37,667 nucleotides of DNA from Alkalicoccus daliensis (GTDB lineage Bacteria > Bacillota > Bacilli > Bacillales > Salisediminibacteriaceae). Below are positions 14,053 through 33,042 of this stretch, one piece after another (the stretch's first letter is position 1; each line of letters opens with the position of its first letter). The translations under genes were made by a program, and so were the position numbers. The notes under the pieces are model-generated. The model was given only the letters and a program-made list of their open reading frames with translations, searched no databases and was not told the DNA's origin. Where the stretch lies: NCBI RefSeq assembly GCF_900103955.1, contig NZ_FNIL01000020.1, positions 1 through 37,667 of the forward strand, written 5' to 3'.

Positions 14053-14613
14053 TTGCCGCAGATGAAAGAAATTATCGTAGTGGAAGGAAAAAATGATACG
14101 CATACACTGAAGCGATATGTTGCATGTGACACGATAGAAACAAGCGGTTCGGGAATTACAAAAGCGACGATAGAAAAAATTCGGCTTGCCAGCGAACGGC
14201 GCGGGGTGATAATTTTTACGGATCCTGATTTTCCAGGTCAAAAAATCCGCCACATTATTGAGCAGGCAGTACCAGGGTGTAAACATGCCTTTCTGCCAAA
14301 GCACGCGGCGATTGACAAAGAAAAAGGAAAAGTAGGTATTGAGCATGCAGCGAAAGAGGATATTCTCGAAGCGCTGGACTCCGTGAAAACAACTCTCCCG
14401 GAAGAAGAACGCGAAGAAACGCCTTCCTGGGGAGAACTGCATGAAGCAGGACTGCTGGCAGGCCCAGGGGCACGGGAAAAAAGACAAAAGCTCGGAGATG
14501 AGCTTCATATCGGCTATACGAACGGAAAACAGCTGGTGAAGCGGCTGCAGCAGTTTCAGATCAGCCGGGCAGAATTTTATCATGCAGTGCAAAAGTTGGA
14601 GGAAAAAGAATGA
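14053..14613 (+). CDS. rnmV: Ribonuclease M5
   Basis: Toprim-domain RNase that matures 5S rRNA. The 186-aa protein has the toprim glutamate in [11 protein letters not shown] and the DxD metal motif in [16 protein letters not shown] (about residues 52-66), followed by CKHAFLPK and the basic C-terminal region. The best Shine-Dalgarno (GAAGGGGA, 14035-14042) is 10 bp before TTG 14053; an in-frame ATG at 14062 gives a more usual N-terminus but has no ribosome binding site at a good distance. The last bases overlap the ksgA start (ATGA), a coupling also seen in B. subtilis. Confidence 0.94.
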
Positions 14614-15494
14614 ATAAAGATATAGCAACGCCGAAACGGACAAAAGAAATTCTGGAAAAACACGGGTTCAAGTTTAAAAAAAGCCTCGGGCAGAATTTTT
14701 TAATTGACCCAAATATATTAGCGAATATTGTACAGGCAGCCGGCGTGACGGAAAGTACGGGAGTAATTGAAGTAGGTCCCGGCATTGGAGCGTTAACAGA
14801 ACACTCCGCACGGCAGGCAAAAAATGTGCTGGCGTTTGAAATTGATCAGCGGCTGCTGCCGATTTTAAAAGAAACGATGGGGCCGTATCCTCATGTAAAG
14901 GTGGTTAATGAAGATGTATTGAAAGCTGATCTTCATGCCCAGATTCAAGAAAATTTCGAAGCGGAACAGGATCTCGCAGTTATAGCTAACCTCCCTTATT
15001 ACGTGACAACCCCGATTTTAATGAAACTACTCGAAGAAAAACTGCCGGTCCGCGTTATGGTCGTGATGATGCAGTTGGAAGTGGCAGAACGTATCGCAGC
15101 AAAACCAGGCTCTAAAGCGTATGGTTCTCTTTCTATTGCCGCGCAGTATTATGCGGAAGCAGAAACAGTTTTTACTGTTCCAAGAACCGTTTTTATGCCG
15201 CCGCCGAATGTAGATTCCGCAATTCTCCGTCTCACACGCCGGGAAAAGCCGCCGGTAGAAGTAGTGGACGAAACCTTTTTCTTTGAGCTTGTACGTGCCT
15301 CATTTGTGCAGCGGCGGAAAACGTTGTTAAATAATCTGTCAAAGTTTTTTGAAGAAAAACTTTCAAAACAGGAAGTTACAGAGCGTTTACAGGAGATTGG
15401 AATCGATGGAAAACGCCGTGCAGAGACGCTGACAATAAAAGAATTTGCTGCACTGACAAGCGCTTTTTACCGCTATACGGGCGATCCCCGTTAA
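14610..15494 (+). CDS. ksgA: 16S rRNA dimethyladenosine transferase
   Basis: Dimethylates A1518 and A1519 in helix 45 of 16S rRNA, a late checkpoint in small-subunit assembly. The 294-aa protein shows [13 protein letters not shown], motif [14 protein letters not shown] (about 53-65), acidic loop FEIDQRLLP, and the catalytic motif [12 protein letters not shown] (about 124-135). ATG 14610 overlaps the rnmV stop and follows GGAGGAAAAAG. In sporulating relatives yabG follows; here ksgA is followed after 27 bp by the first veg promoter, with no space for yabG. Confidence 0.97.
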
Positions 15495-15521
15495 AATCTC
15501 TTAAATTTGCGAATTAATTTG

Positions 15522-15550
15522 TTGACACGCTTTATCGACGTTGCTATAAT
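15522..15550 (+). promoter_or_regulatory. Upstream veg promoter (perfect SigA consensus)
   Basis: TTGACA (15522-15527), 17-bp spacer, TATAAT (15545-15550): a perfect consensus promoter preceded by an AT-rich stretch (TTAAATTTGCGAATTAATTT) that could serve as an UP element. Confidence 0.92.
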
Positions 15551-15561
15551 TTAAATTTTAT

Positions 15562-15590
15562 TTGACTTATTTCGCCTGCTGAAGTATAAT
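15562..15590 (+). promoter_or_regulatory. Downstream veg promoter
   Basis: TTGACT (15562-15567), 17-bp spacer, TATAAT (15585-15590). It lies exactly 40 bp after the upstream promoter and ends 23 bp before the veg ATG. Tandem promoters are also known for B. subtilis veg. Confidence 0.88.
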
Positions 15591-15613
15591 AGGTTTTAAG
15601 TGAGGTGTCGTCG

Positions 15614-15874
15614 ATGGCGAAGACGTTAGCGGAAATCAAGCAGGCATTAGAAGCAAATGTTGGCAAGAAAGTAACGATTCAGGCAAATGGCGGTCGAAAG
15701 AAAATGATTGAGCGGTCCGGACTTCTTGAAGGAATCTACCCTTCAGTATTCACGGTAAAGCTCGACAAAGACGAATATTCGATTGAGCGGTTGTCTTACA
15801 GCTACACGGACGTTTTAACTGAGACAGTTAAACTCTCTGTCCCAGGCGAGCCGTTAGAAGAAGCACAGCCTTAA
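15614..15874 (+). CDS. veg: Veg family protein
   Basis: An 86-aa member of the Veg family (DUF1021), which has an SH3-like fold. In B. subtilis veg is very strongly transcribed and its product has been tied to biofilm formation and spore germination. The conserved N-terminus [20 protein letters not shown] and the KGGRRK-like [12 protein letters not shown] are visible. ATG 15614 is chosen because AGTGAGGTG lies 6-8 bp upstream; a GTG at 15605 is part of that Shine-Dalgarno. Twin strong promoters precede it and a terminator follows, so it is a monocistronic, probably abundant product. Its retention here argues for a role outside sporulation. Confidence 0.96.
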
Positions 15875-15887
15875 AATGATTCGGAAG

Positions 15888-31311: not shown

Positions 31312-31347
31312 AGGAAACATGAACATTTAAGGAGGAGTTCGTTTATC

Positions 31348-31713
31348 ATGAAGGTGGAAGCCGGAGGCATCTATACTGGAAAAGTAAGCAGTATTACAAA
31401 ATTCGGAGCCTTTTTGGATCTGCCTGATGGTAAAAGGGGACTTGTACATATCAGTGAACTCTCTGATGAGTATGTAAAAAATGTTCGTGAAATTGTAGCT
31501 CCCGGCCAGGAAGTGAAGGTGCAGGTGCTGCGTATAGAAGAAGATGGGAAGATAGCTCTTTCCATGCGCTCGCTGGAGGAAAAGGTACCTTCTGAGAGGC
31601 AGTCTGCGAAAAAACAGCCTCCCGCGGTATTTATTCGTGATATACAGCAGTATTTACAGGAGAGTGACAGGAGACTGACTTCTCTTAAAGAGCAGATTGA
31701 AGCAAAACGCTGA
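31348..31713 (+). CDS. yabR: S1-domain RNA-binding protein YabR
   Basis: A 121-aa protein with one S1 RNA-binding domain (about 3-75: GGIYTGKVSSITKFGAFLDL, KRGLVHISEL, VKVQVLRIEEDGKIALSMR) and a basic C-terminal tail. Homologues are general-stress-like S1 proteins (GSP13/YugI relatives); the exact role is unknown. The start follows AAGGAGGAG. In B. subtilis tRNA genes and spoIIE follow; neither is present here. Confidence 0.92.
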   Translation: MKVEAGGIYTGKVSSITKFGAFLDLPDGKRGLVHISELSDEYVKNVREIVAPGQEVKVQVLRIEEDGKIALSMRSLEEKVPSERQSAKKQPPAVFIRDIQQYLQESDRRLTSLKEQIEAKR

Positions 31714-31744
31714 GAAATAAATAATTAAAGATGACTGCTTATAG

Positions 31745-31783
31745 AGATGTGTCCGGCCTGCAACAAATGGCGGCGCATCTTTT
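31745..31783 (+). terminator. Probable terminator after yabR
   Basis: AGATGTGTC pairs with GGCGCATCT (9 bp with G-T pairs) around an 18-nt loop, followed by TTT. It is weak but in the right place. Confidence 0.4.
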
Positions 31784-31818
31784 CGTGTGTTATTGAGCAA
31801 GGCTGGAAGGAGGATGTT

Positions 31819-32580
31819 ATGGGAGCGAAAGCGGATAAAGTAATGGATGTCTGTCTGCAGGCCGGAGAAATTATGTTGACCTACGGCGCGGAAACATACC
31901 GTGTGGAAGAAACGATTGAAAGAATGGCCCGGGCTGCGGGATTCACAAACGTACATTGCTTTTCCACTACGACAGGTATTTTTCTTTCTTTTGAAGAAAG
32001 TAAGGGACACGGAGACCTGATGCAGATGGTGCGGGTAGATGACAGAATGCAGGATTTAAATAAAGTTGCGGAAGTAAATCAGATCTCCCGGGAGTTTACC
32101 TCAGGAATTCTTACCGTCCAGGAAGCAGAACGCCGGCTGGATGAAATCAGTGCTGCAAAAATACAATATCCGATCTGGCTGATTCACTTAGCCGCCGGAG
32201 CTGCCGGTGGAGGGTTCTCCTATCTATTCGGCGGAGGGCTGTATGATTTCATCCCTGCATTTTTTGCGGCGATGATCTCCAGCTTTACGCTGGTTAAGAT
32301 TGAAGGCTATTTAAGAGTAAGATTTGCTTCAGAACTGGCAGCTGCTTTTTTTGGCAGTTCTGCAGCGATCGCTTTTGTCATGCTTGGATTCGGAGCAAGC
32401 ATAGATCAGATTATTATCGGGTCACTCATGCCGCTGGTACCGGGGGTGCCGCTGACAAATGCAGTGCGTGATCTGCTTTCTGGCGATCTGCTGGCAGGAA
32501 TCAGCCGCGGGGTTGAGGCACTGTTAACTTCTCTCTCCATCGCAAGTGGTGTAGCGCTGGCTGTGTCTATCTTTTTATAA
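31819..32580 (+). CDS. ThrE/YjjP-type exporter, large half (DUF1212)
   Basis: A 253-aa protein of the threonine/serine exporter (ThrE) family, corresponding to the N-terminal and central part of fused ThrE or to E. coli YjjP. It has a soluble N-terminal region with LQAGEIMLTYGAETYRVEETIERMARA and HCFSTTTGIFLS (residues 10-60), then about five membrane helices (from about 118), with the conserved GSLMPLVPGVPLTNAVRD motif near 202-219. ATG 31819 follows GGAAGGAGG. It is paired with the small half immediately downstream; the two together should form a single transporter for amino acids or dicarboxylates. It occupies the spoIIE-yabS-yabT interval of B. subtilis. Confidence 0.9.
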   Translation: MGAKADKVMDVCLQAGEIMLTYGAETYRVEETIERMARAAGFTNVHCFSTTTGIFLSFEESKGHGDLMQMVRVDDRMQDLNKVAEVNQISREFTSGILTVQEAERRLDEISAAKIQYPIWLIHLAAGAAGGGFSYLFGGGLYDFIPAFFAAMISSFTLVKIEGYLRVRFASELAAAFFGSSAAIAFVMLGFGASIDQIIIGSLMPLVPGVPLTNAVRDLLSGDLLAGISRGVEALLTSLSIASGVALAVSIFL

Positions 32581-32592
32581 GGAGGTGCGTGT

Positions 32593-33042
32593 ATGGATTT
32601 ACTTTTAGAGATAATTATTACTTTTATAGCGATTCTTGGCTTCGGTATTATTCTGAGTGTTCCACGGCGCGTCCTCTTTATCGGGGCCGGGATTGGCTCC
32701 TGGACATGGCTGGCGCTGCAGACAGGACTGCATTTGGGAATTAACGATGTCGTCTCTACAGTGATCGCTTCGTTTACCGCAGCTACCATTGCGCATTATT
32801 TAGCAAAAAAAATTCATATTCCTGTTACTACGCTTTCTATTCCGGGAATTCTTCCGCTTGTACCGGGGAGCCGCGCATATTTTACCATGCTTTCTTTTGT
32901 GGAAGGAGAATACCTGGACGGGCTCGAATTTGGAGTGGAAACCATGCTCCAGGCAGGAGGAATTGCCGCAGGGCTTGTACTGGCACTCTCGCTCTTTTCT
33001 TTCGGAAAGGGGATAGGAAACCGCTATGAAACAGGCAGTTGA
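32593..33042 (+). CDS. ThrE/YjjB-type exporter, small half (DUF3815)
   Basis: A 149-aa membrane protein with four or five helices that corresponds to the C-terminal half of ThrE (E. coli YjjB). The diagnostic IPGILPLVPGSRAYFTMLSF (about 81-100) mirrors the LVPG motif of its partner. The start follows GGAGGTG, 12 bp after the large half. Its end overlaps the tilS start by 17 bp, so transport genes and tilS are expressed together. Confidence 0.9.
   Translation: MDLLLEIIITFIAILGFGIILSVPRRVLFIGAGIGSWTWLALQTGLHLGINDVVSTVIASFTAATIAHYLAKKIHIPVTTLSIPGILPLVPGSRAYFTMLSFVEGEYLDGLEFGVETMLQAGGIAAGLVLALSLFSFGKGIGNRYETGS

Follow-up and report, generated by a model that had tools for sequence, protein, structure and literature searches.

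In Alkalicoccus daliensis, the circuit that initiates sporulation appears to have outlived sporulation itself. The starting point is a 37,667-nucleotide stretch of its genome (contig NZ_FNIL01000020.1; hereafter the window), in which genes that act only in sporulation are missing from a core region of Bacillus type; the subject is the regulator gene spo0A, its phosphorelay and its target abrB. The proposed reading, to which a probability of about 0.6 is given, is that the ancestor of Alkalicoccus lost its spores, kept the relay, had its spo0A promoter reduced to the Pv type and kept the step from Spo0A to AbrB, and that the same happened in Salisediminibacterium. It builds on observed facts: the gene absences, the relay genes, the loss of Spo0A (0A) boxes at spo0A, the kept box at abrB and the tree.

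The family sample comprised 35 genomes: eight of Alkalicoccus (group g1, including A. daliensis), three of Salisediminibacterium (g7) and 24 others. The 11 genomes of g1 and g7 are called asporogens; "spore-gene-bearing" is a gene-based label for genomes in which SpoIVA and a small acid-soluble spore protein (SASP) were found. Labels were taken for G003 (Alkalicoccus luteus), G007 (A. urumqiensis), G032 (Salisediminibacterium halotolerans) and G034 (Texcoconibacillus); G033 is presumably [Bacillus] selenitireducens. The A. daliensis assembly has 28 contigs and a completeness of 99.98%.

Sporulation genes are absent and phosphorelay genes retained

Genome-wide searches found SpoIVA and alpha/beta SASPs in 0/11 asporogens and in 24/24 of the other family genomes. 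An AbrB-type protein of SpoVT length is likewise present in 24/24 spore-gene-bearing genomes and in none of the 11 asporogens. An earlier note on this DNA, made from its letters alone, had proposed an old loss of sporulation in the lineage. For the sporulation genes this is borne out: all three proteins are absent from 8/8 Alkalicoccus genomes, and these shared absences make the loss older than the genus. Sigma factors of the SigB/SigF/SigG type tell the same story, with one over the cut-off in 11/11 asporogens and three in 23/24 others; the remaining genome, the spore-gene-bearing G017 (76% complete), has two. In A. daliensis the single factor is SigB. Its genome yields 17 sigma-type matches, and the 11 over the cut-off were scanned: RpoD, SigB, a FliA-type factor, SigH, SigW, SigX, a sigma-C type and four others lacking a specific name. 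The search for SigE, SigF, SigG and SigK that the note had suggested found none over the cut-off among these 11.

Two further loci agree. In 9/9 asporogens read, recN and spo0A are separated by a closed stretch without spoIVB; in 6/6 spore-gene-bearing genomes read this stretch holds an open segment of 416-486 amino acids, and 3/3 of those scanned are SpoIVB. The usual place of the spoIIIA operon is between accB and efp. This gap spans 562-1237 bp in 8/9 asporogens and 3018 bp in G033, and at 562 bp in A. daliensis it is too short for the operon (gaps are given for asporogens only, efp lying beyond the stretch in spore-gene-bearing genomes). A 111-amino-acid open reading frame (ORF) between accB and efp (L003:15047-15382) has relatives in 15/15 family genomes compared and matches nothing in NCBIfam up to E 1e-8 or in Pfam up to E 0.01. 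Two Alkalicoccus genome announcements make no mention of spores.

The earlier expectation that spo0A had gone too is ruled out. Spo0A is present in 35/35 family genomes, the A. daliensis protein scoring 411 bits against TIGR02875 (cut-off 200), and so is Spo0F. The spo0F gene of A. daliensis adjoins a fructose-bisphosphate aldolase gene, as it does in B. subtilis. A frame of 125-230 amino acids matches SPOB_a in 35/35 genomes, a model that E. coli and other non-spore-formers also match. Beside obg, 9/9 asporogens read encode a short Spo0B-type protein that has the phosphohistidine motif H-D-x-x-N-x-[LIVM]-Q; in A. daliensis, where obg was identified by model, this protein exceeds the cut-offs of Pfam SPOB_a and SPOB_ab and has no NCBIfam match. 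Spo0F, a Spo0B-type protein and Spo0A, the components of a Bacillus-type phosphorelay, are thus all encoded in A. daliensis.

Promoters of spo0A and abrB

In B. subtilis, spo0A is controlled by the promoters Pv and Ps and by 0A boxes, within a loop of phosphorylated Spo0A (Spo0A~P), AbrB and sigma-H (PMC12090719), and Ps is required for sporulation (PMC3084206). Spore-gene-bearing relatives follow this layout. Two exact 0A boxes lie upstream of spo0A in 24/24 (the far one at -173 to -199, the near one at -41 to -67), and in 22/24 a sigma-H-like promoter has its -10 overlapping the near box. Neither an exact 0A box nor a sigma-H-like match occurs within 400 bp upstream of spo0A in any of the 11 asporogens. 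Shuffled regions contain one exact box in ~5% of cases and a sigma-H-like match in 6-10%. What the asporogens do carry is an extended -10, at 56-78 bp from the spo0A start in 10/11 and at -280 in A. daliensis; in ~4% of shuffles such a -10 falls within 120 bp. The pattern fits a loss of Ps and the boxes in which a Pv-like start was kept.

The abrB promoter gives the opposite picture. Its upstream region was covered in 30/35 genomes (11/11 asporogens, 19/24 spore-gene-bearing), and in 11/11 and 19/19 of these the Spo0A box is exact, in a register constant within a base or so. The box has been kept although synonymous sites within Alkalicoccus (in spo0A) are beyond computing or have a synonymous distance (dS) above 2 in 25/28 pairs. 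Two more exact boxes stand 5' of abrB in the window, at 8019 and 8090. The window holds nine exact boxes against 4.8 expected, so single boxes elsewhere mean little. The best reading is that Spo0A-AbrB control is retained in the asporogens, its predicted binding site having been kept.

The proposed course of events is as follows. The post-commitment genes tested are gone, and the genes of the initiation circuit Spo0F-Spo0B-Spo0A persist. On the 5' side of spo0A, spoIVB, Ps and the exact 0A boxes have been lost, leaving recN followed by a region whose extended -10 resembles Pv. In the B. subtilis loop, Spo0A~P lowers AbrB, sigma-H goes up and spo0A is in turn raised through Ps. In the asporogens this loop would be cut at Ps, and the step from Spo0A~P to the abrB promoter would keep its site. 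Input through the phosphorelay may then adjust AbrB as growth ends, drawing on a Pv-type supply of Spo0A that does not rise to sporulation level. Salisediminibacterium would have reached an equal end state, probably from a separate origin. Phosphotransfer, expression level, binding and the role of the retained circuit are here predicted from sequence.

The proposal can be widened: loss of sporulation in Bacilli may repeatedly and independently have removed the sporulation promoter and boxes of spo0A, turning a threshold switch into a stationary-phase regulator with abrB as its kept target. This wider form is given slightly less than even odds. A second family was read for its asporogens only; an exact 0A box upstream of spo0A occurs in 0/4 of those bearing Spo0A, and an extended -10 lies near the gene in 3/4, with none in G166.

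Weighing the proposed reading

Several observations count against the proposed reading, two of them at the promoter. An extended -10 near -200, the position of Pv, is present in only 15/24 spore-gene-bearing genomes, so that a Pv origin of the -10 in asporogens is something we infer. In the B. subtilis model, moreover, the 0A boxes are mainly repressive and the Ps box has little effect (PMC12090719). Loss of the boxes alone therefore need not lower Spo0A, and the argument rests on the loss of Ps.

The others concern the Spo0A protein, aligned from 33/35 genomes (G031 and G014 have broken frames). It is less constrained in asporogens than in spore-gene-bearing relatives. The ratio of DNA-binding-domain to housekeeping distance (14 taxa) is 0.03 among spore-gene-bearing genomes (15 pairs) against 0.18 within Alkalicoccus (15 pairs), 0.7 within Salisediminibacterium (one pair) and 0.71 over 12 pairs of Salisediminibacterium with others. 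Of 105 invariant residues in this domain, two Salisediminibacterium copies retain 66 and 70. In G031, a one-contig genome of the same genus, spo0A changes frame within the receiver region (L200, C1:1421500-1424500), where a sequencing error is possible; the related copy in G033 has an open frame. The circuit may thus be fading in Salisediminibacterium, while the Alkalicoccus copy looks maintained. Across the order, 397 genomes were surveyed for SpoIVA (best six candidates per genome scored) and 16 have none. A Spo0A_C match was found in 13 of these, nine in this family and 4/7 elsewhere; the other 3/7 have no Spo0A. Separately, the spore-gene-bearing G014 (L111) also shows a spo0A frame change in the receiver region.

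Plain decay, in which everything tied to Spo0A is fading and spo0A, spo0B, spo0F and the abrB box are leftovers, would account for the faster evolution of Spo0A in both genera, for the broken frame in G031 and for the three SpoIVA-less genomes of the order without Spo0A. It is nevertheless judged unlikely. Among the 28 Alkalicoccus pairs of spo0A, dS is beyond computing in 18 and above 2 in seven more, yet the ratio of nonsynonymous to synonymous rates is 0.02-0.08 in the 10 computable pairs (7 of these with dS > 2). Residues D10, D11 and D56 are kept in 7/7 asporogens tabulated, and the abrB box is exact throughout. Unconstrained leftovers should not outlast such change across eight species.

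The number of losses bears on how far the two genera serve as independent cases. In trees from three protein sets, Alkalicoccus groups each time with the spore-gene-bearing G022 as its sister, and Salisediminibacterium falls outside the pair. Two sets reject a clade uniting the asporogenous genera: set 1, with 8 proteins from 18 taxa (approximately unbiased (AU) test, p 0.0012), and set 3, with 11 proteins from 15 taxa (AU p 6e-9; efp and pepP missing in all six spore-gene-bearing taxa). Set 2, with 9 proteins from 16 taxa, does not (AU p 0.17). Because two of three sets reject this clade, sporulation was probably lost twice in the family, separately in Alkalicoccus and in Salisediminibacterium. 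A single loss would require either a wrong tree or a regain in G022 after a loss in the ancestor shared by Alkalicoccus, G022 and Salisediminibacterium. The nine-protein set leaves room for it, and the two genera share identical junction states. The two rejections and the equal placement in all sets speak against it; long-branch attraction would unite the asporogenous genera rather than part them, and the regain of many scattered genes is implausible on general grounds, all of which makes a single loss quite improbable. A last possibility, that A. daliensis does sporulate with the genes placed elsewhere in its genome or missed in assembly gaps, is hardly credible: the assembly is in 28 contigs and the genome-wide searches did not cover spoIIE, yabG, yabP, yabQ and fin, but the assembly is nearly complete; the whole genus, including the one-contig G002, lacks SpoIVA, SASPs and SpoVT and has a single SigB/F/G-type factor, and the spoIVB slot is closed.

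Junctions and gene content of the window

From ksgA to tilS the window carries ksgA, veg, ispE, purR, spoVG, glmU, prs, ctc, pth, mfd, yabM, yabN, rqcP, divIC, yabR and tilS (Table 1). ORFs, family models and comparison with relatives, used to examine both order and gaps, confirm that this is the order of B. subtilis, where the sporulation genes in question usually sit between these core genes. The same relatives and a permissive tblastn search uphold the earlier statement that yabG, sspF, fin, spoVT, yabP, yabQ and spoIIE are missing without remnants, and related spore-gene-bearing genomes carry the missing genes at the same junctions. Reference proteins for these seven and for yabS all came from Salipaludibacillus (L005); NCBIfam and Pfam models confirmed 7/8, yabS being named by position only. 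No match to the eight genes in the window was better than E 0.9, apart from SpoVT against abrB (E 7e-16), the similarity expected between the two. The same queries detect yabG, sspF, fin, spoVT, yabP, yabQ and spoIIE in the reference loci L007, L009, L010 (spoIIE partial) and L013; the yabS query has no match in L010 or L013, and L011 served as a reference in part only. Junctions were read in nine of the 11 asporogens (the window, G001, G002, G003, G004, G007, G031, G032 and G033; not G005 and G006), and the set of absences is equal in them, the G004 stretch leaving out the ksgA-veg and veg-ispE junctions.

Table 1. Genes, junctions and the abrB-promoter box in the window
Feature	Positions	Strand	Remark
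ricT (yaaT), retained	4455..5282	+	NF041131 E 3e-98
abrB, transition-state regulator, retained	7415..7702	-	best matches, 87-100% identical, present in 35/35 genomes of the family
Spo0A box TGTCGAA in the abrB promoter	7764..7770	-	just downstream of the -10
ksgA	14610-15494		
ksgA-veg junction, no yabG	15495..15604	.	110 bp; yabG here in Salipaludibacillus, Texcoconibacillus, G022, G012, G008
veg	15605-15874		
veg-ispE junction, no sspF	15875..16673	.	799 bp; slot also without sspF in G022
ispE	16674-17552		
spoVG, retained	19437..19766	+	NF009749 E 1e-46
pth	23076-23768		
pth-mfd junction, no fin	23769..23864	.	96 bp; spore-gene-bearing relatives carry fin here
mfd	23865-27467		
mfd-yabM junction, no spoVT	27468..27559	.	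92 bp
yabM	27560-29128		
rqcP	30592-30852		
rqcP-divIC junction, no yabP/yabQ	30853..30924	.	72 bp; spore-gene-bearing relatives carry both here
divIC	30925-31311		
yabR	31348-31713		
yabR-thrE1 junction, no spoIIE/yabS	31714..31746	.	33 bp; both genes 5' of the thrE pair in 6/6 genomes read
thrE1/thrE2, threonine/serine exporter pair	31747..33042	+	PF06738 E 8e-79, PF12821 E 2e-33
tilS	33026-34405		

Other parts of the note need correction. The seven separate losses it counted come down to six junctions, since yabP and yabQ share one. Among the junctions it called closed, veg-ispE at 799 bp is not tight. At yabR-tilS, spoIIE is absent as claimed and yabS is missing as well; yabR and tilS themselves are not neighbours, the thrE pair lying between them. 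A replacement of spoIIE by this pair was considered and ruled out, the pair being native to the position between yabS and tilS in 6/6 spore-gene-bearing relatives read; the loss therefore removed spoIIE and yabS and left the pair in place. The note's list of retained genes stands for spoVG and ricT, by model matches, and for abrB. Its view that the losses look selective goes further than the gaps allow, as gaps alone do not separate selective loss from relaxed selection with deletion. For its picture of genes shed one by one there is a hint: the spore-gene-bearing sister G022 (L195, C3:55000-74999) has a slot without sspF, which hints that sporulation genes did not all go at once. G022 also has a single SASP match, the lowest of 24.

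Smaller features of the window were also recorded. In the veg-ispE gap, neither NCBIfam nor Pfam matches the 80-amino-acid ORF at 16388-16630, and short imperfect repeats of a AATAACAGATA-like unit are visible by eye at 15990-16190. The purR-spoVG gap (18558-19437) holds, by eye, two near-identical terminator-like copies (~18590 and ~19165) flanking ~550 bp, which looks like a duplication around an insert. Upstream of metS, positions 8500-8760 resemble what we take to be a T-box leader.

Comparison with known systems

The kind of finding has been known since 2012 for a probable member of this family: Spo0A-positive non-spore-formers without sig/spo genes include Bacillus selenitireducens, Exiguobacterium and Macrococcus caseolyticus (Galperin et al. 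2012, PMC3533761, Table 5). With Spo0A present and the core sporulation genes tested absent, the asporogens belong by gene content to category 3 of that work, the asporogenous Spo0A-positive Bacilli. The missing set is of the kind described there, where sigE, sigF, sigG, sigK, spoIIE, spoIVA, spoIVB and all SASPs are among the absent genes and Spo0A is kept. Of the 68 Spo0A-bearing genomes counted in another paper, 15 were apparent non-spore-formers; the options offered were that the loss is recent, that Spo0A has an alternative role or that spores have so far escaped notice (PMC6136694). Repeated loss of sporulation genes is also described for Bacilli orders with independent sporulation losses, where it is tied to host association and genome reduction (PMC10868615); here the genomes measure 2.7-3.8 Mb and saline places are the source of the named relatives.

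The new element is the contrast between the spo0A and abrB promoters across probably independent losses. No paper on such a contrast in asporogens was found in the open-access literature of one library, and those parts of PMC3533761 that deal with these organisms leave the spo0A promoter and the abrB box untreated. Two genera of one family, with probably separate losses and each beside spore-gene-bearing relatives, act as natural replicates. With the boxes lost at spo0A and one kept at abrB, the alternative-role option becomes testable, and, if the reading is true, the type of spo0A promoter would serve as a sequence-based predictor of a lineage's ability to sporulate.

Compared with PMC3533761, the present analysis adds two genera with a tree, junction-level detail, Spo0F, a Spo0B-type protein and the promoter comparison. 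Compared with the spo0A control of B. subtilis (PMC12090719, PMC3084206), the spore-gene-bearing relatives are alike in their boxes, in a sigma-H-like promoter over the near box and, in 15/24, in a Pv-like -10; the asporogens differ, having neither box nor Ps, with a -10 near the gene in 10/11.

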